This document shows, one piece after another, positions 4,671-23,759 of a stretch of DNA of 64,000 bases. The DNA is taken from assembly GCA_902557965.1 (NCBI GenBank), contig CACECK010000004.1, forward strand, positions 1 to 64,000, written 5' to 3'. The notes under the pieces are model-generated. The model saw only the letters and a list, made by a program, of their open reading frames with translations, was not told the DNA's origin and did not search any database. Positions within the stretch are counted from its first letter, which is position 1, and every line of letters starts with the position of its first letter. The translations under genes and the position numbers were made by a program. The DNA is from an uncultured SAR86 cluster bacterium. GTDB lineage: Bacteria; Pseudomonadota; Gammaproteobacteria; Magnimaribacterales; D2472.

Positions 4671-5656
4671 TAGCTTAAAGACTCATTAATTTTGGATAAA
4701 AGTTGTTCTGAGCTTTCAATATTACCATCTTTTGAAATTGCTCGAACAAATGTTTTATCATTTTCTTCTGTAATGGTAATTTCAAATTCTGATTCCTCTC
4801 CAATAATAATTTCCTCAGGATTGACTGTTTCGCTTCTTCTTCCAAAAAGACCAAAAAGACCCCTATCCTCCTCTTCAGAATAACTTACAAAAAATACACC
4901 TTTAGTTCTATCTCGATCATTAGTAACAATATTTGCCTCGACAAGAGCCTTGCTCACAGAAGACCAAGCCCTGTCAAAATTTAAATCTAATGCAATTACT
5001 GTCCTACCATCTTCACTAAAGATACTGGCTTTTTTCATTTCATTAAGATTTTGAGCAGCTAAAGAAGTTCCTGAAAAACTACTAATTGATTCAGCAAAAT
5101 ATTCAACAATATTAGACATTTCTGATTGCAATAATTCAGGATTGCTAATAATAGTTCCATCAGATTTATTTATTTGATATAAAAATATTTCTGTCGATGC
5201 TTCTTTAATACCATGCTCGACCCGCATTTGTAGTTTTGAATCCTGATCATAATCAATATCAATTTCTCCGGTGTTTGGATCAGCTTTTGTGACTTGATAT
5301 ATAGAAGTATCCCAGTAATTTTTTGAGATTGGCCAAGATGTTGACGGAAGAGTTTCTATGTAAATCCACATTAGTTCTCCTAACCGTCGCAACTGGACTG
5401 AGCTATTACCTGAAGATGCAAAAATTTGTCTTGGTTTGGGTACTTCTAATTGATCACCAACATCCTCTATATCAATTACTGGATAATGGTTCTCAGTCTT
5501 TAGATCATCTAAAGATCCTGGTAATGAAATATCATCTTCAATCTTTTCTTCAAGAAAATCATATTTTTTTTCAGGAAATAATTTTTCTGAAGCACCAAAA
5601 ATTGAACATCCATTTATTATAAAAATGGACAAAATAAAAGCAGAATATCTAATCAT
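4670..5656 (-). CDS. bamC: BamC, lipoprotein of the BAM outer-membrane assembly complex
   Basis: Accessory lipoprotein of the complex that inserts beta-barrel proteins into the outer membrane. It has a signal peptide and lipobox ending INGC near residue 17, then an unstructured acidic stretch rich in LPEKK, SLPGS and VPKPRQIF elements. In E. coli this part binds BamD. Two helix-grip domains follow. At 328 aa it is close to E. coli BamC (344 aa). It overlaps dapA by 4 bp, as expected for dapA-bamC. Confidence 0.9.
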   Translation of the reverse strand: MIRYSAFILSIFIINGCSIFGASEKLFPEKKYDFLEEKIEDDISLPGSLDDLKTENHYPVIDIEDVGDQLEVPKPRQIFASSGNSSVQLRRLGELMWIYIETLPSTSWPISKNYWDTSIYQVTKADPNTGEIDIDYDQDSKLQMRVEHGIKEASTEIFLYQINKSDGTIISNPELLQSEMSNIVEYFAESISSFSGTSLAAQNLNEMKKASIFSEDGRTVIALDLNFDRAWSSVSKALVEANIVTNDRDRTKGVFFVSYSEEEDRGLFGLFGRRSETVNPEEIIIGEESEFEITITEENDKTFVRAISKDGNIESSEQLLSKINESLS

Positions 5657-6543
5657 ATTAATCCTAATTTTAACATTTCAGCGGAAATACTTTCATGGTA
5701 TTTTTTGTCTAATTCAATCAATGGCAATCTTAATGAATTCTTAATAAAGCCCATTTTATTTAGCATCCATTTTACAGGAATTGGGTTTGATTCAAAAAAT
5801 AGCATCTCGTATAAATTAATATATCTATCATTAAGTATTTTTGCTCCGGCCTCATCTCCATTTGAAGTGTAGCTACAGATTTTTGAAATTGATTCTGGTA
5901 TCACATTTGCAGCCACAGAGATGACACCATGACCGCCACATTTTAAGAATTCATAAAATGAAGGGTCATCTCCAGATAAAATTTTAAAATCTTGGTTATC
6001 AAGAGAGATTTTTATCAAATCATTAATCCTTTTTTTATCATTAACAGCTTCCTTTATACCAATTATATTTTTATGCTCGGAGAGTACATTCACTGTTTGT
6101 GGAATTAAATCGCAAGAGGTTCTAGACGGCACATTGTATAGGATTTGTGGAATATTTGAGCAATCTGCAATTTTTGTATAATGCTGAATGAGGCCATTTT
6201 GAGATGGCTTGTTATAGTATGGTGTAACTATTAATGCAAAGTCTGCACCTATTTTTTCAGCTTCTTTTGTTAACTCTATTGCTTCAAGTGTTGAATTAGC
6301 TCCAGTTCCAGCAATAACAGGAACTCTTTTATTAACATGTTTAACTGTGTGTTGGATTAGATCTATGTGTTCACTTAAGCTAACAGTAGCAGACTCGCCA
6401 GTAGTACCTACAGAAACAATTCCATTTGTGCCTTGGTCGATATGCCAGTCAATAAGACTATCTAATGAAGCATAATCTATAGCTCCATCAGACTCCATTG
6501 GAGTCACTAAAGCAACAAAACTTCCATTTAACTCTTGAATCAT
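5653..6543 (-). CDS. dapA: 4-hydroxy-tetrahydrodipicolinate synthase
   Basis: Condenses pyruvate and aspartate semialdehyde in the first committed step of the diaminopimelate/lysine pathway, feeding peptidoglycan synthesis. The 296-aa TIM barrel has GTTGESATVS (substrate loop), YNVPSRTSCDL (catalytic Tyr) and GIKEAVND (Schiff-base Lys). It is the first gene of dapA-bamC-purC. A TATAGT-like -10 lies about 23 bp upstream; I see no strong Shine-Dalgarno. Confidence 0.97.
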   Translation of the reverse strand: MIQELNGSFVALVTPMESDGAIDYASLDSLIDWHIDQGTNGIVSVGTTGESATVSLSEHIDLIQHTVKHVNKRVPVIAGTGANSTLEAIELTKEAEKIGADFALIVTPYYNKPSQNGLIQHYTKIADCSNIPQILYNVPSRTSCDLIPQTVNVLSEHKNIIGIKEAVNDKKRINDLIKISLDNQDFKILSGDDPSFYEFLKCGGHGVISVAANVIPESISKICSYTSNGDEAGAKILNDRYINLYEMLFFESNPIPVKWMLNKMGFIKNSLRLPLIELDKKYHESISAEMLKLGLI

Positions 6544-7074: not shown

Positions 7075-8039
7075 TATATAGCGACATTTAAAATACTTTT
7101 GCTTGTAATACTGCCTCTTATCATTCCATCAGTATTAAAAGGCATTGCAATATTAGCTTCACTATCTATAGCTATTAAGCCTCCCTCTGCATCAATATTT
7201 TTAAGCTCATTAAGGATTTCTTTTGATGAGGTGCTAATGTTTTTGTCAAGATACTCAATTCTTGCACACACTTCGCGAGCAACCTGATATTTTATAAAAT
7301 ACTCGCCATGCCCTGTTGAAGAAACACCACAAACACCATTTTGAGCCCAAGTTCCTGATCCAATTATTGGAGAGTCGCCAACTCTTCCTGGCATCTTATT
7401 TGTCATACCACCTGTGGATGTTGCTGCAGAAATATTTCCATTTATATCTAATGCTACAGCCCCAACCGTACCGATTTTGTCCTGAGTAGCTGATTGAATT
7501 CCTGCATTTTTTTTAGCCTTAGCTTTTTTCAGTCTTTTGAGATTTTTTTCAGAGTAAAAGTAATCTTGATCAACTATTGTTTCACCAATATTTTTTGCAA
7601 ATATTTCAGCGCCTTCTCCAACGAGCATCACATGCTCAGTTGATTCGGCAACTTTCCTTGCTAATTTGATTGGGTTTTTTATTCTTTGTATAGACGCCAC
7701 TGCCCCTGCCATTCTGTCTTTACCACTCATAATTGATGCATCCATTTCTTGAACTCCATTTGAATTATAAACAGAGCCCTTTCCAGCATTAAAAAGAGGT
7801 GAGTCTTCTAACTCTGCTACAGCAAATTCAACAGCATCAATGCTTGAACCCCCTTTTTCAAGAATTGTATATGCTTTAATTAAGGTATCAGAAATTTTGT
7901 TTTCAATTTTCTGTTTTTGCTCTTCAGATAAATTTTTCATTACGCCAGCTCCGCCATGAACAGCTATTCCAAAATTATCAGAGCTCATAATATAAGAAGT
8001 TTGAAAAATTATTAAAAATAATAGTGTTTTAACCTTCAT
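7071..8039 (-). CDS. Isoaspartyl peptidase / plant-type L-asparaginase, probably exported
   Basis: Ntn-hydrolase of the asparaginase_2 family, which cleaves isoaspartyl dipeptides and asparagine. Autocleavage would expose the Thr in GTVGAVALD (around residue 190). AVHGGAGV near the start and DSPLFNAGKGSV are family motifs, and STGGMTNKMPGRVGDSP binds substrate. The first 18 residues form a hydrophobic signal peptide, suggesting a periplasmic enzyme. It overlaps the upstream membrane-protein gene by 11 bp. E. coli IaaA is the nearest named relative; orthology is not shown. Confidence 0.9.
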   Translation of the reverse strand: MKVKTLLFLIIFQTSYIMSSDNFGIAVHGGAGVMKNLSEEQKQKIENKISDTLIKAYTILEKGGSSIDAVEFAVAELEDSPLFNAGKGSVYNSNGVQEMDASIMSGKDRMAGAVASIQRIKNPIKLARKVAESTEHVMLVGEGAEIFAKNIGETIVDQDYFYSEKNLKRLKKAKAKKNAGIQSATQDKIGTVGAVALDINGNISAATSTGGMTNKMPGRVGDSPIIGSGTWAQNGVCGVSSTGHGEYFIKYQVAREVCARIEYLDKNISTSSKEILNELKNIDAEGGLIAIDSEANIAMPFNTDGMIRGSITSKSILNVAIY

Positions 8040-9093
8040 TTAGTGAAGATGTTCCTGGCCATGAATTCCAAACAGCCTTTATAAATGTTGCTAATGGTAT
8101 TGAGAAGAATACTCCCCAAAAACCAAACATACTTCCAAAAACAAAAACCGCAAGGATAATAACTACAGGATGCAATTTAACCGCTTCAGAAAAGATAATT
8201 GGCACTAATACATTGCCATCTAAAGCTTGAAGTAAAAAATAGAGTCCTACTAAAAGATAAAACTGAGGACCTATTCCAAATTGAAGTAGTCCAATAATTA
8301 CTATAGGTATGGTAACAGTGAAAGCTCCAACATATGGAATTAAAACAGATAATCCTACTAGAACTGATAACAAGGCTGTATATTTAAGTCCAAATACAGA
8401 AAATAATATTGCAGCTGCAAAGCCTACTATTAAAATTTCTAGTACTTTACCTCGTACATAGTTGCTCAGCTGAACATCCATTTCTTTCCATACCTTGGAA
8501 AGCATCTCTCTTTTACCTGGAACGATATTAATAACTCCGTTAATAATATTTTTCCTGTCAAATAGAAAGAAAAATACGAGAATTGGAAATAGAATTATAT
8601 AAAGCAAAACAGTTATAGTACTTTGGATTCCTGATATAGAGGATTTCACAAGATTTTGAGTAATTGAAGATAACTCTGATGAAACTGCTTGAAAAAATAC
8701 TGATATTTGATCTGCTGATACAAGATCAGGAAAGGTTGCAGGCATATCAGATACAAAATTTAAAAATTCATTAAATAGTCTGGGTAGATCCAACACAAAA
8801 GTTTGAAGTTGAACATATATTAATGGTATCAACCAAATAAACATGGCAGCTCCAACAATTATAAATACTGCAAATGATAGAATTAATGCTATCGATTCAG
8901 AGACATTGTAAGTCTCGATCTTTTTTTGGAGGCCAACTAATAAATAAGCAACAATTATGCTGATAATGAATGGAGTTAATATAGCTGCAAAATAATTTAA
9001 GGTAACTAGAGAAATAACAATGATGATAGAAAATACTACCGTTTCCTCATTATTAAAGACTTTTTTAAATAAATTATTTATATGTTCAAGCAT
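8029..9093 (-). CDS. AI-2E/PerM family membrane transporter
   Basis: Polytopic inner-membrane protein of 354 aa with a paired-helix N-terminus, a central soluble region (about residues 70-150), and a C-terminal block of helices. The motifs LFPILVFFFLFDRKNI, PYVGAFTVTIPIVI and GVFFSIPLATFIKAVWNSW are typical of this family. Members have been linked to AI-2 export, permease-like functions and Na+/H+ antiport; substrate is not predictable. A TATAAT box lies 8 nt before the ATG, overlapping an AGGAA Shine-Dalgarno. Confidence 0.9.
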   Translation of the reverse strand: MLEHINNLFKKVFNNEETVVFSIIIVISLVTLNYFAAILTPFIISIIVAYLLVGLQKKIETYNVSESIALILSFAVFIIVGAAMFIWLIPLIYVQLQTFVLDLPRLFNEFLNFVSDMPATFPDLVSADQISVFFQAVSSELSSITQNLVKSSISGIQSTITVLLYIILFPILVFFFLFDRKNIINGVINIVPGKREMLSKVWKEMDVQLSNYVRGKVLEILIVGFAAAILFSVFGLKYTALLSVLVGLSVLIPYVGAFTVTIPIVIIGLLQFGIGPQFYLLVGLYFLLQALDGNVLVPIIFSEAVKLHPVVIILAVFVFGSMFGFWGVFFSIPLATFIKAVWNSWPGTSSLNEG

Positions 9094-9186: not shown

Positions 9187-10620
9187 ATGAAACCGATCTT
9201 TCAAAATACTAATATTTGTTTGTTTGGCCTTTTGCTATCATTAAATTCTTTGGCTCAAGAAATTAAATTACCTGAGTTAGGAGATAGAGTTTCTGGTGCT
9301 GTATCTGCTGGACAAGAAAAAGCTATTGGTGAAATGTTTCTGAAGCAAATATATTCTCAAGCACCTCTTATATCTGACCCACTTCTTTTTGAGTATACAG
9401 AGCATCTAATATATCGTTTATCAGAATATAGCCAAGTATCTGATAGATATTTCAATATATTGTTAATTGACGATAGTTCACTAAATGCGTTTGCTGCTCC
9501 TGGAGGTATTATTGGTGTAAATGGCGGATTATTTCTTCATGCAGATAACGAAGGTCAATTTTCTTCAGTCCTGGCTCATGAATTAGCCCATTTAAGCCAA
9601 AGACATTTTGCTAGAAATGTTCTTAAATCAAAAGATAGTAATCTTGCATCTGCTCTTGTTATGGTTTCTTCCATTGCAATAGCTCTAATAAGTAATAATC
9701 CAAATGCCATAGCGGTTGGACCTGCAATATTGCAACAGCAAAACCTAAGATATAGTCGTTTATTTGAAAAAGAAGCTGACAGGGTTGGCTTCATAAATCT
9801 AGTTAATGCTGGTTACAACCCAAAATCAATGGGTGAAATGTTTGAGAATATGAATAATCTTAGGAGGTTATCAGGTGACTTACCTCCAGAATTTCTTTTA
9901 ACTCATCCGCTTTCTTCTTCAAGAATAAGCGATGCTTTTAATGCTGCTGAAAATATACCAGAAGAAGGTACAAAGAAAGATTCGCTAGAGTTTTCACTTA
10001 TGCGAGCTAGGCTTGAAATATATTATGAAACTATTCCAGCTAATGCCCTAAGATTGTATAAATCAAAAGTTTTAGAAACCCCTAATGATGCTAATATTTA
10101 TGGTCTAGCTTTGGCTTATAAAAATAATAATAATTACGCAGATGGTCTAAAGTTGTTAGATGATTTGATAAACAAATATCCTAAAAATCTTGTGATTAAC
10201 ACCACTAAAGTTGATTTTTTAACTCATTTTGGTAATTACAAGGAGGCTCTTTTACTTGCTAATAAATTCTTAGAAATATCACCAAAAAATTATCCACTAT
10301 CTATATCAAAGTCAAAAATATTACTTCTTATGAAAAAATATTTTGAATCTGAAGAAATAATAAGAGACCAACTATTGAGAAAGAATGATGATCCGGAGTT
10401 ATGGCTACTTCTTTCCGAGATTCAGAAAACAAGCCAAAACATAATAGGCTACCATCAAAGTCGTGCAGAGTATTATCTTCTTTTAGGGCAAAACGAAATG
10501 GCTCTAAACCAGCTTGAATTTGCTCTTCAACTTACTCAAAATAATTTTCAAGTATCAGATAGAATAATGACAAAGATTATTGAGATAAAAAAATATTTAC
10601 AGGATTCTAGAGGTCTTTAA
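9187..10620 (+). CDS. bepA: BepA-like periplasmic M48 metalloprotease with TPRs
   Basis: Periplasmic protease and chaperone that promotes LptD and BAM-dependent outer-membrane assembly and degrades stalled substrates in E. coli. It has a signal peptide (residues 1-23, ending SLAQ), an M48 domain with zinc motif HELAH at 131-135 and the third ligand in FEKEADRVGF. A C-terminal TPR region of about 200 residues follows. Its 477 aa match E. coli BepA (487). Its 3' end overlaps the convergent carrier gene by 14 bp. Confidence 0.93.
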   Translation: MKPIFQNTNICLFGLLLSLNSLAQEIKLPELGDRVSGAVSAGQEKAIGEMFLKQIYSQAPLISDPLLFEYTEHLIYRLSEYSQVSDRYFNILLIDDSSLNAFAAPGGIIGVNGGLFLHADNEGQFSSVLAHELAHLSQRHFARNVLKSKDSNLASALVMVSSIAIALISNNPNAIAVGPAILQQQNLRYSRLFEKEADRVGFINLVNAGYNPKSMGEMFENMNNLRRLSGDLPPEFLLTHPLSSSRISDAFNAAENIPEEGTKKDSLEFSLMRARLEIYYETIPANALRLYKSKVLETPNDANIYGLALAYKNNNNYADGLKLLDDLINKYPKNLVINTTKVDFLTHFGNYKEALLLANKFLEISPKNYPLSISKSKILLLMKKYFESEEIIRDQLLRKNDDPELWLLLSEIQKTSQNIIGYHQSRAEYYLLLGQNEMALNQLEFALQLTQNNFQVSDRIMTKIIEIKKYLQDSRGL

Positions 10621-14404: not shown

Positions 14405-15024
14405 GATGGATTAAATTTTACCAAAATATTTTTGAAGTCAGATTGATAAAGGTTTGGAGGAATCCTATCAAAAAAATTAAAAGTCTCAACTCTCTCTACT
14501 GCTTTTAATGCAGAATTATCAAATCTTATATTTCCACTGCTCCTTATTAAATTTATTTTTACAATTCTCCCATTTTTATTTATGGTTAGCCTCATATCGC
14601 ATATCAATCCGCCTTGAATGTTGATGGGTTTTCTCCATGCTTTCTGAATGTTAGAAATTATTAATGAGCTAAAAAAATCAATCTTGTTCTGATCAGATTG
14701 ATTTAGTATTTCGCTATCCTCATCAATTAGGTCTTTTATGTTTAATGTATTTGCTAGCTCATCAAAAGAGATTTCATTTTTAATTGTTTCTGTTGATAGT
14801 TCATCATTTAATTTGCTCGTTTGGATCTTATTTTCTGATTTAGAAACTGACTCTTTTGGAGCAACTGCTAACTGCTCAAATATAAGATTTACATTTATTG
14901 GTTTGCTAATGATTGATCTTTCAGTGCTTTCTTTATAAAAAACTCCAAGCATCGACAAAATAATAATCGCATGAATGAAAAAAGAAATAAAAGATGCTTC
15001 TAAGTATTTAGAATTAGTTTCCAT
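14401..15024 (-). CDS. tolA: TolA, short form
   Basis: Inner-membrane protein that bridges TolQR to TolB/Pal in the outer membrane. One N-terminal transmembrane helix (ISFFIHAIIILSMLGVFY) is followed by a short linker and a TonB/TolA-type C-terminal domain (about residues 120-207) with IQGGLICDMRLTINKNG and SSGNIRFDNSALKAVE. At 207 aa it is only about half of E. coli TolA (421). The long Ala/Lys-rich helical domain II is nearly absent, and the linker is acidic/Ser-rich. It overlaps tolR by 11 bp. Confidence 0.9.
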   Translation of the reverse strand: METNSKYLEASFISFFIHAIIILSMLGVFYKESTERSIISKPINVNLIFEQLAVAPKESVSKSENKIQTSKLNDELSTETIKNEISFDELANTLNIKDLIDEDSEILNQSDQNKIDFFSSLIISNIQKAWRKPINIQGGLICDMRLTINKNGRIVKINLIRSSGNIRFDNSALKAVERVETFNFFDRIPPNLYQSDFKNILVKFNPS

Positions 15025-15436
15025 ATCCTGTTGTTACAATCCCTATTTTGGTAATTCCAACGCTTTGTACCGAAGCCATTGCCTTGGCAACAAAATCAAA
15101 TGAAGCATCTTTATCGCTTTGAAAAACAACTTCAATTTCTGGATTTGCTTCAAAAATGACTTGAGATTTTCTCTTAAGTTCATCTAGATTAATAGTGAGA
15201 GACTCATCTCCTACATTGATAAAATATTCGCCACTTGAATTAATTGAGATAACAAGAGGTTCACTCTGCACAGTCATTTTTGTTGTGTCAGTTTTTGGAA
15301 GATTTACTTCAATGCCTTGTATTAATAATGGTGATAAAACCATAAAAATTATTAGCAATACCAGCATTACATCAATATATGGCACTACATTTATTTCTGC
15401 TTTTAATTTTTTTTTATTTCCAAGCCTATAAATCAT
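15014..15436 (-). CDS. tolR: TolR, ExbD-like proton-channel subunit
   Basis: Inner-membrane partner of TolQ in the proton-driven motor that energises TolA. The cytoplasmic N-terminus runs into a single transmembrane helix, INVVPYIDVMLVLLIIFMVL. This helix has the essential proton-carrying Asp (about residue 22). The periplasmic domain (residues 45-140) resembles ExbD. The length of 140 aa is normal. It overlaps tolQ by 4 bp and tolA by 11 bp, implying coupled translation. Confidence 0.96.
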   Translation of the reverse strand: MIYRLGNKKKLKAEINVVPYIDVMLVLLIIFMVLSPLLIQGIEVNLPKTDTTKMTVQSEPLVISINSSGEYFINVGDESLTINLDELKRKSQVIFEANPEIEVVFQSDKDASFDFVAKAMASVQSVGITKIGIVTTGYGN

Positions 15437-16101
15437 TTTTTAGTTGATTGCTTATAAAAAATACTGGCTAACTCTTCAGCGAAGATCATAGTATTTTGAC
15501 TAATTGATTCAGCTTCGGATGTAAATTTATTGAAGGCTATCACTGCAGGTATGGCTGCAAACAACCCCATTCCAGTTGCAACTAATGCTTCAGAAATTCC
15601 TGGAGCAACTGCATTAATTGTTGCTTGAGTTGCATCAGATAAACCTTGAAAAGAAGTCATTATCCCCCAAACAGTTCCCAACAGACCAACGTAAGGACTA
15701 ACAGAACCAACATTGGCTAGAAAAGACATATGTTTATTCATTTCTTCTTCATCTGAAGCTATAGAAACTCTCATCAATCTATTAATGCTCTCCAAATCAG
15801 ACTCATTTATATCTATTTGAGAACTTAAATTTTTAAATTCCATATATGAACTTTTAAAAAGATTCATAGCACCATAAATATTTTCAGATTTAGATACATC
15901 TTTCATAAGATTATCTAAATCCTTTTCTATCCAAAAATTTTTTAAAAATAAATCATTTGTTGATCTTATTTTTTTGAAGAACCGATATCTTTCAACGATA
16001 ATTATCCAAGAAAGTATCGATGCTACGAACAAAAGCATCATTACAGTTTTTACTACTAAGCCAGCTTCAAGAAAAAGATTTAAAACCGATATTTCATCCA
16101 T
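15433..16101 (-). CDS. tolQ: TolQ, ExbB/MotA-like proton-channel subunit
   Basis: Inner-membrane protein that forms the proton channel with TolR. It has three membrane segments: residues about 15-35, then about 130-155 (LANVGSVSPYVGLLGTVWGI) and 165-190 (GISEALVATGMGLFAAIPAV). A cytoplasmic loop lies between the first two. GLLGTVWGIM and ATGMGLFAAIP are TolQ signatures. The 222 aa are normal. It lies 9 bp after ybgC, the standard ybgC-tolQRAB order. Confidence 0.97.
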   Translation of the reverse strand: MDEISVLNLFLEAGLVVKTVMMLLFVASILSWIIIVERYRFFKKIRSTNDLFLKNFWIEKDLDNLMKDVSKSENIYGAMNLFKSSYMEFKNLSSQIDINESDLESINRLMRVSIASDEEEMNKHMSFLANVGSVSPYVGLLGTVWGIMTSFQGLSDATQATINAVAPGISEALVATGMGLFAAIPAVIAFNKFTSEAESISQNTMIFAEELASIFYKQSTKK

Positions 16102-16110
16102 AAAAATAAC

Positions 16111-16521
16111 CTACTTAAAAATTAATAATAAATCATCTGGAAATTTTTGTGGTTTTTTTGTTAACAAATTTATAAAACAAACTTCCACATCACCATCAAC
16201 ATATTCTATTCCCGTTTTTGAATTTAATATTTTTTGATTAAAAATCATTCTTGCATCTGATTTTTTCTGAACAATGGAATTAACTTCTATTTCATCTCCT
16301 AGTTCGGCAGCTGCAAGGTATTTGATATTTATGTTTTTAATAACAAAAGCAAGATTATTTTTTCTTAGCATATCTTGTGAGATATTATTTATAGCTAAGA
16401 ACTCAGATCTAGCTCTCTCAAAGAATTTTATGTAATTTGCATGATAAACAACGCCTTGAAAATCGGTATCTTCAACATAAATTTTAAGATTTAATGTATT
16501 ACACTTGATAGCTTTGTTCAT
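16111..16521 (-). CDS. ybgC: YbgC, hotdog-fold acyl-CoA thioesterase
   Basis: Small hotdog thioesterase of the tol operon; E. coli YbgC hydrolyses acyl-CoAs and interacts with phospholipid synthesis enzymes. The 136-aa protein has the catalytic motif YVEDTDFQGVVYHANYIKF, with Asp18 as the presumed catalytic residue. Its first 23 bp overlap the 3' end of the upstream nuclease gene, implying translational coupling. That overlap puts the nuclease in the same transcription unit as the Tol system. Confidence 0.95.
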   Translation of the reverse strand: MNKAIKCNTLNLKIYVEDTDFQGVVYHANYIKFFERARSEFLAINNISQDMLRKNNLAFVIKNINIKYLAAAELGDEIEVNSIVQKKSDARMIFNQKILNSKTGIEYVDGDVEVCFINLLTKKPQKFPDDLLLIFK

Positions 16522-16924
16522 GAAGTTCTATATCCTCCTGAAATAGCTCAAGGATAATTTGAATAAAGTCAGGCCATAATAAATCAACCGTTACCAAGTT
16601 GTTTTTGATGTCTTTATTTATTGTATTTGCAAGGACTCGAACTTTTATAGGTCTATTATTAAATTTGTATACTAAAGCTGGCTTCAAGTTTGAACCAGAA
16701 GATGATGCAATTACCTGATCCCACCAATCTGGTCTTGGCTCAGCTCCGCTACCATATGCTTTACATTCTATACACCAAGTACCAAGCATCAAATCAGGTA
16801 ATTCCTTTGTTCTTGTTTGTTCAAGTATTCTTTTAACAGGATTTTTAAGACTAAGATCTTCTATCAATGCATTAGCTATTTGTCTTTCAAAAGCAGCTCC
16901 TTTATTTCTTGAATTAATAGACAA
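16499..16924 (-). CDS. PD-(D/E)XK nuclease, Hjc/phage Holliday-resolvase-like, in the ruvC position
   Basis: A 141-aa protein with the motif layout of the archaeal Hjc and phage-type resolvase/nuclease superfamily. It has NKGAAFERQIANAL with Glu13, PDLML with Asp44, and IECKAYG with Glu53 and Lys55, i.e. a full PD-(D/E)XK catalytic set. A following WWDQVIASSS contains a candidate active-site Gln70. It is not RuvC, which has an RNase H fold. It lies 2 bp after yebC and overlaps ybgC, exactly where ruvC-ruvA-ruvB usually sit in gammaproteobacteria. A Holliday-junction role is inferred from motif and position; another structure-specific or restriction-like nuclease is possible. Confidence 0.75.
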   Translation of the reverse strand: MSINSRNKGAAFERQIANALIEDLSLKNPVKRILEQTRTKELPDLMLGTWCIECKAYGSGAEPRPDWWDQVIASSSGSNLKPALVYKFNNRPIKVRVLANTINKDIKNNLVTVDLLWPDFIQIILELFQEDIELHEQSYQV

Positions 16925-16926
16925 AA

Positions 16927-17664
16927 TTAATTTTCTACCTCAAAATTTTCTGCTAGTTCCGCATTTGTATGAACCTCTTGCACATCATCTAGATCATCCA
17001 TAAATTCCATAATATTGAGAACTTTCTCAGACATTTCTTGATCTAGGTTTATCAAGGTCTCGGCTCTCAAGCTCATCTCAGCATTTATATATTCAATATT
17101 TTTTTCTTTTAATATATCAACAATTTGGTTGAACTCATTAGCTCCTGTTGTTATTTCAAAAAAATCATCTTCTTCAGTAAAGTCCTCTGCTCCAATTTCT
17201 ATAACAAGCTCTACAAGTTCATCCTCTGCAAAATCTTTGTTCAAATGTATTACTCCAAGTTTTTTAAAAAGATATGCAACTGAACCATCAGTACCAAGAT
17301 TGCCACCAAATTTTGAAAAAGCATGTCGTACATCTGAAACTGTTCTATTTCTATTATCAGTCATAGTTTCAACAAGAATAGCAACTCCACCAGGACCATA
17401 ACCTTCAAAAATAATTTCTTCTAAAGCTCCGGTTTCTCCAGTACCCGAGCCCTTCTCAATCGCACGCTTAATAGTATCTTTAGGCATATTTGCAGAGTTA
17501 GCTTTTTCAAGAGCAAGCCTTAATCTCGGATTGTCGTTAGGATCTGGGCCGCCTTTTGCAGCAACAGTAATTTCTCGAATAACTTTAGTCCAAACCTTTC
17601 CTCTTGAAGCATCTTGTCTAGCTTTTCTATGCTTAATGTTTGCCCATTTGGAGTGACCTGCCAT
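16927..17664 (-). CDS. yebC: YebC/TACO1 family translation factor
   Basis: Member of the YebC/PmpR family, once described as transcriptional regulators and more recently tied to relief of ribosome stalling at proline stretches. The start MAGHSKWANIKHRKARQDASRGKV is nearly invariant in the family; acidic C-terminal domains follow. The 245 aa are typical. It sits between aspS (6 bp upstream) and the resolvase-like gene, the normal aspS-yebC-(ruvC) context. Confidence 0.96.
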   Translation of the reverse strand: MAGHSKWANIKHRKARQDASRGKVWTKVIREITVAAKGGPDPNDNPRLRLALEKANSANMPKDTIKRAIEKGSGTGETGALEEIIFEGYGPGGVAILVETMTDNRNRTVSDVRHAFSKFGGNLGTDGSVAYLFKKLGVIHLNKDFAEDELVELVIEIGAEDFTEEDDFFEITTGANEFNQIVDILKEKNIEYINAEMSLRAETLINLDQEMSEKVLNIMEFMDDLDDVQEVHTNAELAENFEVEN

Positions 17665-17670
17665 AATTTA

Positions 17671-19434
17671 TTATTCCTTGTGGGTGCTTATAATTTTAAG
17701 TTCTTCAAGTTGCTCTTTTTCAACTTTACTTGGTGCATCAGTCAAAAGACATGCAGCACTTTGAGTTTTTGGAAATGCAATTACATCTCTAATATTTGAT
17801 GTGTCTGTTACTAACATTACTATCCTATCAAGCCCAAAAGCAATGCCTCCATGAGGCGGACATCCTGATGAAAGAGCTTTTAATAAGAATCCAAATTTAT
17901 TTTCAGCATCTTCTTTAGTAATATTAAGAATGTTAAAAATAGTTTTTTGCATTGCATTGTCATATATTCTTAGAGAGCCTCCGCCAATTTCGTATCCATT
18001 TAAAACAACATCGTACGCATGTGCAATTGCATCTATAGGATTTCCTTCTAATTCTTTAGTTGAGCATTTTGGAAGAGTAAAAGGATGATGAAGCGGAGTT
18101 AAATCACCCTCTTTGTTTGTTTCAAACATTGGAAAATCAACCACCCAACAAGGCGCCCATTTCTTTATATATAAATCAAGATCTTCTCCAAGTTTTTTAA
18201 TAAGGCTACTCATAGATAAGTTCACAACTGACTCATTGCCAGCTCCAAAGAAAATAAGATCATCTGTTTCAACACCTAAAGACTGAATTATGTTTGAAAC
18301 TGTTTCAGGTTGTAAGAATTTTAAAATTGGTGATTGAATACCACTTTCTAAATCATTTACATCATTAATCTTGATATATGCTAAACCTTTGGCTCCAAGC
18401 TTTGAAACGAACTTAGTATAATCATCAATTTGTCCTCGAGATAAAGAATTACCTTTGGGAACTTTTAAGGCCACTACCCTTGATCCTTTTTTTGAAGCAG
18501 GTTCTGAGAAAACTTTGAATTCTTCATCTTTAACCACCTCAGATATATCAACTAAATTAAGTGGTATTCTCAAATCAGGCTTATCACATCCATAGTCACG
18601 CATAGCATCATGCCAATTAATTACTTCAAATTTATCAAGTTCATCATCACAAAATTCTTCAATGATATCTTTGATCATTTTTTCACTTACAGCCATGATC
18701 TCATCCTGATTTATAAAAGAAGCCTCGATATCAATTTGAGTAAATTCTGGTTGTCTATCAGCTCTTAAATCCTCATCTCTAAAACATCTTGCTATCTGAT
18801 AGTATTTATCTAAACCACCTATCATTAAAAGCTGTTTAAAGAGTTGAGGTGACTGAGGCAAAGCATAAAAACTGCCTGGCTGGACTCTGCTAGGTAAAAT
18901 GTAGTCTCTAGCTCCCTCTGGAGTTGCCTTGGTTAATATAGGTGTCTCAATTTCGTGGAAATCATTTTTATCTAAATAATTTCTAATTAATGAAGTAATC
19001 TTTGATCTAGTTATGATTCTCTCATTCATTTCAGGTCTTCTAAGATCAAGCACCCTGTTTTTTAATCTTACATCCTCATTAACTTCTTGATATTCATCTA
19101 TTGGAAAAACCGGAGTGCTTGCTTTGCTAAGAATAACCAGGTCTATAACTTCAATTTCAATTTCACCTGTGTGCATATTCTTATTAATTGTTCCTTCTAG
19201 CCTATTTCTTACACTACCTTTGATCTGAACAACATATTCATTTCTTATAGACTCAGCTAATTTGAAAGATTTTTCATTATCAGGATTTACAACAGCCTGG
19301 CATATACCTTTAATATCTCTTACATCTAGAAAAATTACGCCTCCATGGTCTCTTCTTCTATGAATCCAGCCACAAATTGTTATTTCTTCTTTTAGATTTG
19401 AAGATGTAATTTCACCGCAATAATGAGATTTCAT
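17671..19434 (-). CDS. aspS: Aspartyl-tRNA synthetase
   Basis: Class IIb synthetase that charges tRNA-Asp. At 587 aa it is the bacterial type. The N-terminal OB fold (EITICGWIHRRRDHGG) binds the anticodon. The catalytic core has motif 2 FRDEDLRADRQPEFTQIDIE-like residues around 215-235, and a GAD insertion lies in the middle. Motif 3 is GIAFGLDRIVML. Whether it is discriminating or also charges tRNA-Asn cannot be told here. It follows the FmdB gene by 13 bp. Confidence 0.97.
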   Translation of the reverse strand: MKSHYCGEITSSNLKEEITICGWIHRRRDHGGVIFLDVRDIKGICQAVVNPDNEKSFKLAESIRNEYVVQIKGSVRNRLEGTINKNMHTGEIEIEVIDLVILSKASTPVFPIDEYQEVNEDVRLKNRVLDLRRPEMNERIITRSKITSLIRNYLDKNDFHEIETPILTKATPEGARDYILPSRVQPGSFYALPQSPQLFKQLLMIGGLDKYYQIARCFRDEDLRADRQPEFTQIDIEASFINQDEIMAVSEKMIKDIIEEFCDDELDKFEVINWHDAMRDYGCDKPDLRIPLNLVDISEVVKDEEFKVFSEPASKKGSRVVALKVPKGNSLSRGQIDDYTKFVSKLGAKGLAYIKINDVNDLESGIQSPILKFLQPETVSNIIQSLGVETDDLIFFGAGNESVVNLSMSSLIKKLGEDLDLYIKKWAPCWVVDFPMFETNKEGDLTPLHHPFTLPKCSTKELEGNPIDAIAHAYDVVLNGYEIGGGSLRIYDNAMQKTIFNILNITKEDAENKFGFLLKALSSGCPPHGGIAFGLDRIVMLVTDTSNIRDVIAFPKTQSAACLLTDAPSKVEKEQLEELKIISTHKE

Positions 19435-22751: not shown

Positions 22752-23759
22752 TTATTTTGATTTAGATGTTATATAAGAAGAACGAATTTCTTTAACAAGT
22801 TTATTTTTAACTTTAGCATTTTCCTTTAAAAATAAACTGGCTTTTGTTTTACCTTGTCCAATGGTTTCGCCATCTAATTTATAAAATGCGCCAGATTTTT
22901 CAACTAATCCAAGTTTATTTCCATAATCTAACATTTCACCTTCTTGGTTAATTCCTAATCCATACATAATTTGAAACTCAGCCTGTTTGAATGGAGGTGA
23001 AACTTTATTTTTAACAACTTTAACTCTAGTTTCATTTCCAATTACTTCATCGCCCTCTTTAACTGCACCAATTCTTCTTATATCTAGTCTTACTGATGAA
23101 TAAAACTTAAGGGCATTTCCACCGGTAGTAGTCTCTGGACTCCCAAACATTACACCAATTTTCATCCTAATTTGGTTAATGAAAACAACCGTAGCTCCAG
23201 ATCTTTGAATATTACCTGTTATTTTTCTGAGTGCTTGAGACATTAATCGCGCTTGCAAACCTACGTGATGATCTCCCATCTCTCCTTCAATTTCTGCTCT
23301 TGGAACTAATGCAGCTACTGAATCTATGATAACCAAATCGACGCTTTTAGACTTAACAAGCATATCAGCAACTTCAAGAGCTTGTTCTCCAGTATCAGGT
23401 TGAGATAAAAGAAGCTCGTCAACATTTACACCGAGCTTCTCGGCATATTGGGGATCTAGAGCATGCTCTGCATCTATAAACGCACATGTTCCCCCCTCTT
23501 TTTGACACTGTGCAATAATTTGAAGTGTTAAAGTAGTCTTACCAGATGATTCTGGACCATATATCTCAGTTACTCTACCTTTGGGAATACCACCTATGCC
23601 TAGTGCAATATCTAATCCTAGAGAACCAGTCGATATTGATGGGATATCTAGATTTTCTCTATCCCCCATTCTCATTACTGTTCCCTTACCAAAATGATTA
23701 TCGATATCACTGATAGTATCTTTTAATGACTTCGGGGAAGTATCTTTTGATTTAGCCAT
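22752..23759 (-). CDS. recA: RecA recombinase
   Basis: ATP-dependent strand-exchange protein and SOS co-protease. The 335-aa protein has the Walker [12 protein letters not shown] (about residue 67-77), the Walker [11 protein letters not shown], and the DNA-binding loops [20 protein letters not shown]. The start has a strong AAGGAG Shine-Dalgarno 8 nt upstream, stronger than most genes here. A LexA box lies about 20 bp before the ATG. The acidic C-terminal tail of E. coli RecA is replaced by a short basic one (ending TSKSK). Confidence 0.98.

Follow-up and report, generated by a model that had tools for sequence, protein, structure and literature searches.

Few recombination genes of bacteria are as conserved as those of RuvAB and the resolvases RuvC and RecU (PMC1193525). 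RecU, the substitute for RuvC in Firmicutes, works with RuvAB and is mostly encoded apart from ruvAB (PMC1193525). The E. coli RusA protein, encoded by the DLP12 prophage, depends on RecG for the efficient replacement of RuvABC (PMC5055574). Hjc_15-6 of the Thermus phage Tth15-6 (PDB 7bnx), a phage resolvase of the archaeal type, has been shown to cut junctions (PMC8805305). The replacement of a resolvase by a non-orthologous phage gene is already known. New in the SAR86 locus described here are its order-wide extent, its occurrence in place and the accompanying loss of the whole of RuvABC. No report of a ruvCAB replacement in SAR86 was found in the open-access literature searched.

The window, a stretch of 64,000 nucleotides, belongs to a genome of the SAR86 order that is 1.05 Mb long and 82% complete; SAR86 single cells and MAGs are its closest named relatives. 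All of its genes discussed below are on the minus strand. The nuclease gene (16499..16924, minus strand) encodes 141 amino acids. Its ORF, Pfam and PHROGs matches, AlphaFold model, fold comparison, alignment and tree define the product as an Hjc-like PD-(D/E)XK nuclease of the PDDEXK_15/PHROG 244 family, a predicted Holliday junction resolvase that occupies the ruvCAB slot. Upstream, yebC (16927..17664; ORF and Pfam) is separated from it by a gap of 2 bp, an adjacency that is conserved, and aspS (17671..19434) forms the upstream end of the conserved block. Downstream, the gene of a ybgC-like thioesterase (16111..16521; ORF and Pfam) overlaps the nuclease gene by 23 bp, and a GGAGG resembling a ribosome site for ybgC sits within the nuclease gene. 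Then follow tolQ (15433..16101) and tolR (15014..15436), assigned like aspS by ORF and synteny. The first-pass annotation of the window had placed the nuclease ORF between yebC and ybgC-tolQ, with aspS beyond and with the same gap and overlap; the coordinates bear this out, and tolR can be added to the neighbours. The ORF begins with TTG. The relatives L004, L005 and L008 have ATG at the same codon, which supports this start. The Pfam match, the gene order kept in four families and the low dN/dS put the ORF well outside what chance would produce.

Pfam assigns the protein to PDDEXK_15 (PF24608), a family of putative phage endonucleases, with an E value of 1.1e-9 and a score of 38.8 bits that passes the 27-bit gathering cut-off. 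The PHROGs search returned PHROG 244, labelled 'RusA-like Holliday junction resolvase' (E 2.1e-13). Relatives are found in Roseobacter, Alteromonas, Stenotrophomonas and Vibrio phages, and at least 386 IMG/VR stretches encode one. Motif I, residues R6-R14 (RxKGxxFER; 16883..16909, minus strand), contains the catalytic Glu13, is invariant or nearly so in the alignments, including that of 94 homologues, and lines up with the KG...ER of Hjc. Motifs II and III, residues 43-55 (PD44 ... IE53CK55; 16760..16798, minus strand), form the predicted metal site with the catalytic Lys, in the same order as PD...IE-x-K of Hjc. The first-pass annotation had numbered Glu13, Asp44, Glu53 and Lys55 correctly; the four are invariant across 16 aligned homologues, and among the 94 from SAR86, phages and other sources E13, E53 and K55 occur in every one and D44 in 89.

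The nuclease is argued here to work like Hjc, yet it is filed under PDDEXK_15: it is not a sequence member of the Hjc families of Pfam or NCBIfam, Pfam reporting only PDDEXK_15 and NCBIfam no match. Nor does it match the RuvC domain (PF02075, RNase H fold), the slot protein being of the PD-(D/E)XK type, or the Pfam families of RecU and RusA. The label 'RusA-like' of PHROG 244 is thus misleading with regard to the predicted fold, which is Hjc-like. No PDDEXK_15 member is known to have been assayed on a junction.

A PDB sequence search with the protein and with a 16-row profile found no relative; the comparison of folds alone found one. The AlphaFold2 model has a pLDDT of 85 and a pTM of 0.81. 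Archaeal Hjc enzymes and the ST1444 resolvase filled the first nine rows of a Foldseek search of the PDB with this model (best E 1.4e-3), and a restriction endonuclease, 3ndh, appeared in row 10. VIA-align gave a Z score of 10.4 to Hjc of P. furiosus (1gef; rmsd 2.6 over 102 residues) and 10.3 to Hje (1ob8), compared with 7.9 for the best non-resolvase and 6.2 for RecU; identity to Hjc/Hje over the structural alignment is about 14-22%. A shallow profile of the family matched Hjc weakly, with an hhalign probability of 21%, which increased to 84% (E 8e-6) when the alignment was deepened with phage homologues to 94 rows; six unrelated profiles gave at most 0.4%. E13, D44, E53 and K55 are colinear with the catalytic residues of the SIRV1, A. 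fulgidus and S. solfataricus resolvases, with KG..ER, PD and IExK in register. The predicted model has both the fold of the Hjc type and its catalytic layout, with the Glu in helix 1, the Asp in motif II and Glu-x-Lys in motif III. The likeness to Hjc claimed in the first-pass annotation has held, since the structures best matching the model are archaeal Hjc/Hje, known junction resolvases. The E value of Foldseek to Hjc is modest, however, and the fold is common to restriction enzymes and other nucleases, which counts to some extent against a resolvase role.

The gene was detected in 94 of the 107 genomes of the window's family and in 181 of the 203 of the order (38 of the 40 that are at least 90% complete), covering 22 of 22 genera and four families. 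Among the 22 genomes that lack it, 18 also lack yebC; in G005, G052 and G055 the contig ends after or within yebC, and the only yebC in G056 is foreign. The missing cases either have no locus or are at a contig edge, so that no assembled SAR86 slot lacking the nuclease was seen. Searching a sample of the class with the nuclease profile yielded only the four genomes of the SAR86 order and three scattered ones with weak, diverged copies, and the sample of the phylum added three further weak matches.

Fifteen other members of the class were sampled around ruvC. Here ruvC-ruvA is found in 15 of 15 and ruvB in 14, yebC precedes ruvC in 12, and tolQ follows in 11, in nine of them with ybgC before it. 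In the SAR86 order the arrangement is proS / fmdB-aspS-yebC-nuclease-ybgC-tolQ-tolR-tolB, as far as the contigs reach, in loci from 10 genera of the window's family and from the other three families (f2-f4). In the representative of f4 (L241, genome G191; 4993-6026) ybgC is not detectable and tolQ directly follows the nuclease gene. Comparison of the two gene orders indicates that a block of three genes was exchanged for one. The proposal that gammaproteobacteria have ruvCAB at this spot and that it was replaced in place agrees with the ruvC-ruvA found in the same slot in all 15 class members.

The ruv genes themselves are missing. tblastn with E. coli RuvA, RuvB and RuvC gives no match anywhere in the 64-kb window, as the first-pass annotation had reported, and no intact ruvABC turned up elsewhere in the genome or in its relatives. 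RuvC (PF02075 profile) is found in none of the 203 genomes of the order, the window's included, and in 343 of the 369 genomes of the class sample. Five nearly complete genomes of that sample (G240, G486, G205, G225 and G274; 1.1-1.8 Mb) have neither a RuvC match nor a nuclease of the SAR86 type. A profile search for RuvA, which would also be the partner of a RecU-type enzyme, found it in none of the 107 genomes of the window's family. RuvB_N matches occur in 106 of the same 107 genomes; they were rejected as RuvB, having AAA+-level scores of about 25-36 bits and falling mostly in ORFs of 420-560 amino acids. These genome-wide searches for RuvA and RuvB covered the window's family. In f2-f4 the slot region was covered, and E. 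coli RuvA, RuvB and RuvC match nothing around the nuclease there.

In a maximum-likelihood tree the 28 SAR86 rows are, together with one virus (L125), on a single branch (100/99), whose sister is a clade of phage genes (97/89); the alignment has 138 columns, few enough to limit the resolution. The tree suggests that the nuclease was probably acquired once, from a phage, before the order diversified, and then descended vertically. Of the 'phage-like or archaeal-like' resolvase envisaged in the first-pass annotation, the phage part stands as the origin, the SAR86 genes adjoining phage genes in the tree, and the archaeal part applies to the fold only. The virus contig L125 (IMGVR_UViG_3300030372_000660) encodes at 7995-8414 a nuclease 53% identical to that of the window, within the SAR86 branch and near an endolysin gene; it may be a phage, possibly of SAR86, that took the gene from its host. 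An apparent prophage in the SAR86 genome G095 (L042, C4; 8504-18236) contains a second, diverged nuclease (36-37% identical) besides the normal copy, and adjoining this second copy are a RecE-like exonuclease, a primase-helicase and a terminase. The median dN/dS within the genus is 0.042 for the nuclease, 0.059 for yebC, 0.199 for ybgC, 0.066 for tolQ and 0.034 for tolR, rough values with synonymous sites near saturation. By this measure the nuclease is under strong purifying selection.

The rest of the recombination pathway was surveyed in G061, a genome of the same genus that is 96% complete (1.27 of 1.28 Mb covered; 11 kb of contig C2 left out). tblastn with E. coli proteins detected RecA, RecF, RecO, RecR, PriA, UvrD, XerC/D, FtsK and YqgF, the last also by TIGR00250 (98 bits, cut-off 43), and no convincing RuvA, RuvB, RuvC, RecB, RecC, RecD, RecJ, RecQ, RecN, RadA, RarA or RusA. 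Matches to RecB, RadA and RecN were judged from sequence to be UvrD, DnaB-like and SMC-like proteins; E. coli RuvB gave weak AAA+ matches only, and the match to RecG, a protein of 1101 amino acids, is Mfd (TIGR00580, 827 bits). Loading of RecA by RecFOR appears, on these searches, to be the sole loading route remaining. The window itself contains recA (22764..23732, minus strand), whose product is 64% identical to E. coli RecA. Since RecFOR and RecA, which makes junctions by strand exchange, are retained, junctions should still arise in SAR86.

Full-length RecG (about 590-700 bits) is found in families f2-f4 and in the genera g5, g6 and g7 of the window's family. It was not found in the window's genus (g1) or in g3, g8 and g9, where no match rises above the level of Mfd (about 340-370 bits, ORFs of 1000-1100 amino acids); for the window's genus this was read from relatives, the genome of the window being too incomplete to judge. 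The first-pass annotation had named recG and yqgF as genes to be sought in relatives, with a divided result: YqgF is present in G061, and RecG is kept in g5-g7 and f2-f4 and absent from the window's genus, in which no dedicated branch-migration enzyme was found. Loss of RecG is, on this distribution, limited to part of the order, and the nuclease is kept throughout. Because RecG is kept in g5, g6, g7 and f2-f4, it was probably lost after RuvABC. The genera without RecG are a puzzle, since RusA in E. coli requires RecG for efficient replacement of RuvABC.

The nuclease is likely to be an Hjc-like Holliday junction resolvase of phage derivation that was recruited by an ancestor of the SAR86 order, took the place of ruvCAB and was inherited vertically. 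This is based on its position, its conservation, purifying selection, the absence of RuvA and RuvC, the affinity to phage genes, and the Hjc-like predicted fold with colinear catalytic residues. By analogy with Hjc, it would act as a homodimer on four-way junctions produced by RecA, with Mg2+ bound in each subunit by Glu13, Asp44 and Glu53 and with help from Lys55. Symmetrical nicks in opposite strands would leave two duplexes that can be ligated. Such an enzyme, in contrast to RuvC, would need no loading or scanning by RuvAB and may thus cleave junctions in their absence. In the genera lacking RecG it would act without a dedicated branch-migration enzyme.

Several observations count against this explanation, and some of them lead to different ones. 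The operon of the nuclease contains no recombination partner; RusA needs RecG (PMC5055574), yet RecG was not found in the window's genus; and another candidate resolvase, YqgF (RuvX), is present in G061. YqgF might be the working resolvase and the nuclease might do another DNA job, such as debranching of replication intermediates, flap cleavage or DNA turnover. Its homologues in H. pylori and M. tuberculosis cleave junctions in vitro, although the E. coli protein is reported to function in the processing of rRNA (PMC9601230). Most bacteria by far have YqgF together with RuvC or RecU, and hence it is no simple substitute (PMC1193525). This alternative, which leaves the order-wide fixation of an Hjc-fold nuclease in the ruvCAB slot without explanation, is unlikely. 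SAR86 may also tolerate poor resolution. At the extreme, it would dispense with resolution and the nuclease would be a neutral phage relic, in keeping with the streamlined genome and with RecBCD, RecJ, RecQ, RecN and RadA not being found in G061 by tblastn; the median dN/dS of 0.042, the intact gene in nearly all genomes and the invariant catalytic residues contradict this, and make it barely credible.

The common occurrence of the PD-(D/E)XK fold in restriction enzymes, with 3ndh at row 10 of Foldseek, could also point to an anti-phage or restriction-type enzyme that landed in the operon by chance. The gene has no PADLOC match and no defence neighbours, however, and its invariant, near-universal position across 22 genera is unlike that of defence genes; this reading was rejected as highly improbable. 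Closest to the resolvase explanation, and overlapping with it, is a broad structure-selective endonuclease that acts on junctions, flaps and Y-forks in general debranching, junction resolution included. The nearest relatives are phage genes, one of them within a phage recombination-replication module, and viral resolvases are typically more promiscuous than bacterial ones (PMC3864405). Vertical retention in the chromosome under strong purifying selection favours a controlled activity instead. The two differ on specificity, which sequence does not separate, and the broad enzyme is possible but, on balance, doubtful.

A gene of another phage resolvase family was met in the same slot on a 12-kb contig binned with G056 (L347, G056:C26). 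Its YebC is 45% identical to that of the window and it carries TrcR (PF06242), which we take to be an alphaproteobacterial protein, so that the contig is foreign to G056 and apparently alphaproteobacterial; its gene order resembles that of SAR11. Between yebC and tolQ, at 9577-9870, lies an ORF of 97 amino acids that matches PHROG 2002, 'Holliday junction resolvase' (E 4.5e-10). Thirty IMG/VR proteins share 76-84% identity with it; the genes of those that were checked immediately precede that of the terminase large subunit. The best match of its model (pLDDT 74) is Hjc, a weak one (Z 6.5). This one contig suggests, as a lead, that another phage resolvase independently took the yebC-tolQ slot.

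We propose tentatively, with slightly more doubt than confidence, that in the genera without RecG, the window's own among them, the nuclease alone makes up the dedicated post-synaptic machinery, with RuvABC, RecG and RadA all missing, and that at least one other marine lineage, apparently alphaproteobacterial, independently slotted in a different phage resolvase. If this is true, the streamlining of genomes in the ocean would have gone repeatedly through the takeover of the ruvCAB position by phage resolvases. The SAR86 order itself offers a natural test of whether junction resolution needs branch-migration motors, RecG being needed by RusA in E. coli for efficient replacement, and a clear case of a phage gene that became a core housekeeping gene in very abundant ocean bacteria.

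Among the known systems, RecU is a PD-(D/E)XK resolvase that replaces RuvC group-wide, as the SAR86 nuclease probably does; in SAR86, however, RuvAB is gone too, the nuclease is in the ruvCAB slot, and its structural Z score to RecU is only 6.2. RusA, a resolvase of prophage origin, can take over from RuvABC with no RuvAB present, as is proposed for the SAR86 nuclease, but it belongs to another family, is cryptic in E. coli and needs RecG for efficient substitution (PMC5055574). The archaeal Hjc and Hje enzymes (1gef, 1hh1, 1ob8 and 2wcw) resemble the nuclease in predicted fold, in the KG..ER - PD - IExK layout and in size (about 115-145 amino acids). They act without RuvAB, in which the SAR86 enzyme would resemble them by analogy; it differs in being bacterial and phage-related, not archaeal, and in a WWxQV motif (W67-V71) that its family has kept. 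Of the phage resolvases that have been tested, Hjc_15-6 is the nearest precedent, with the E - D - ExK motif common to both: it is a phage gene with E-SD-EVK, whereas the SAR86 nuclease has E-PD-ECK and resides in a bacterial housekeeping operon. The PDDEXK_15/PHROG 244 nucleases of Roseobacter phages CRP-811 and CRP-821, phage C72C1 and Alteromonas phage R7M are sequence homologues with the same invariant residues. They reside in phages, whereas those of SAR86 are chromosomal and group together as one.
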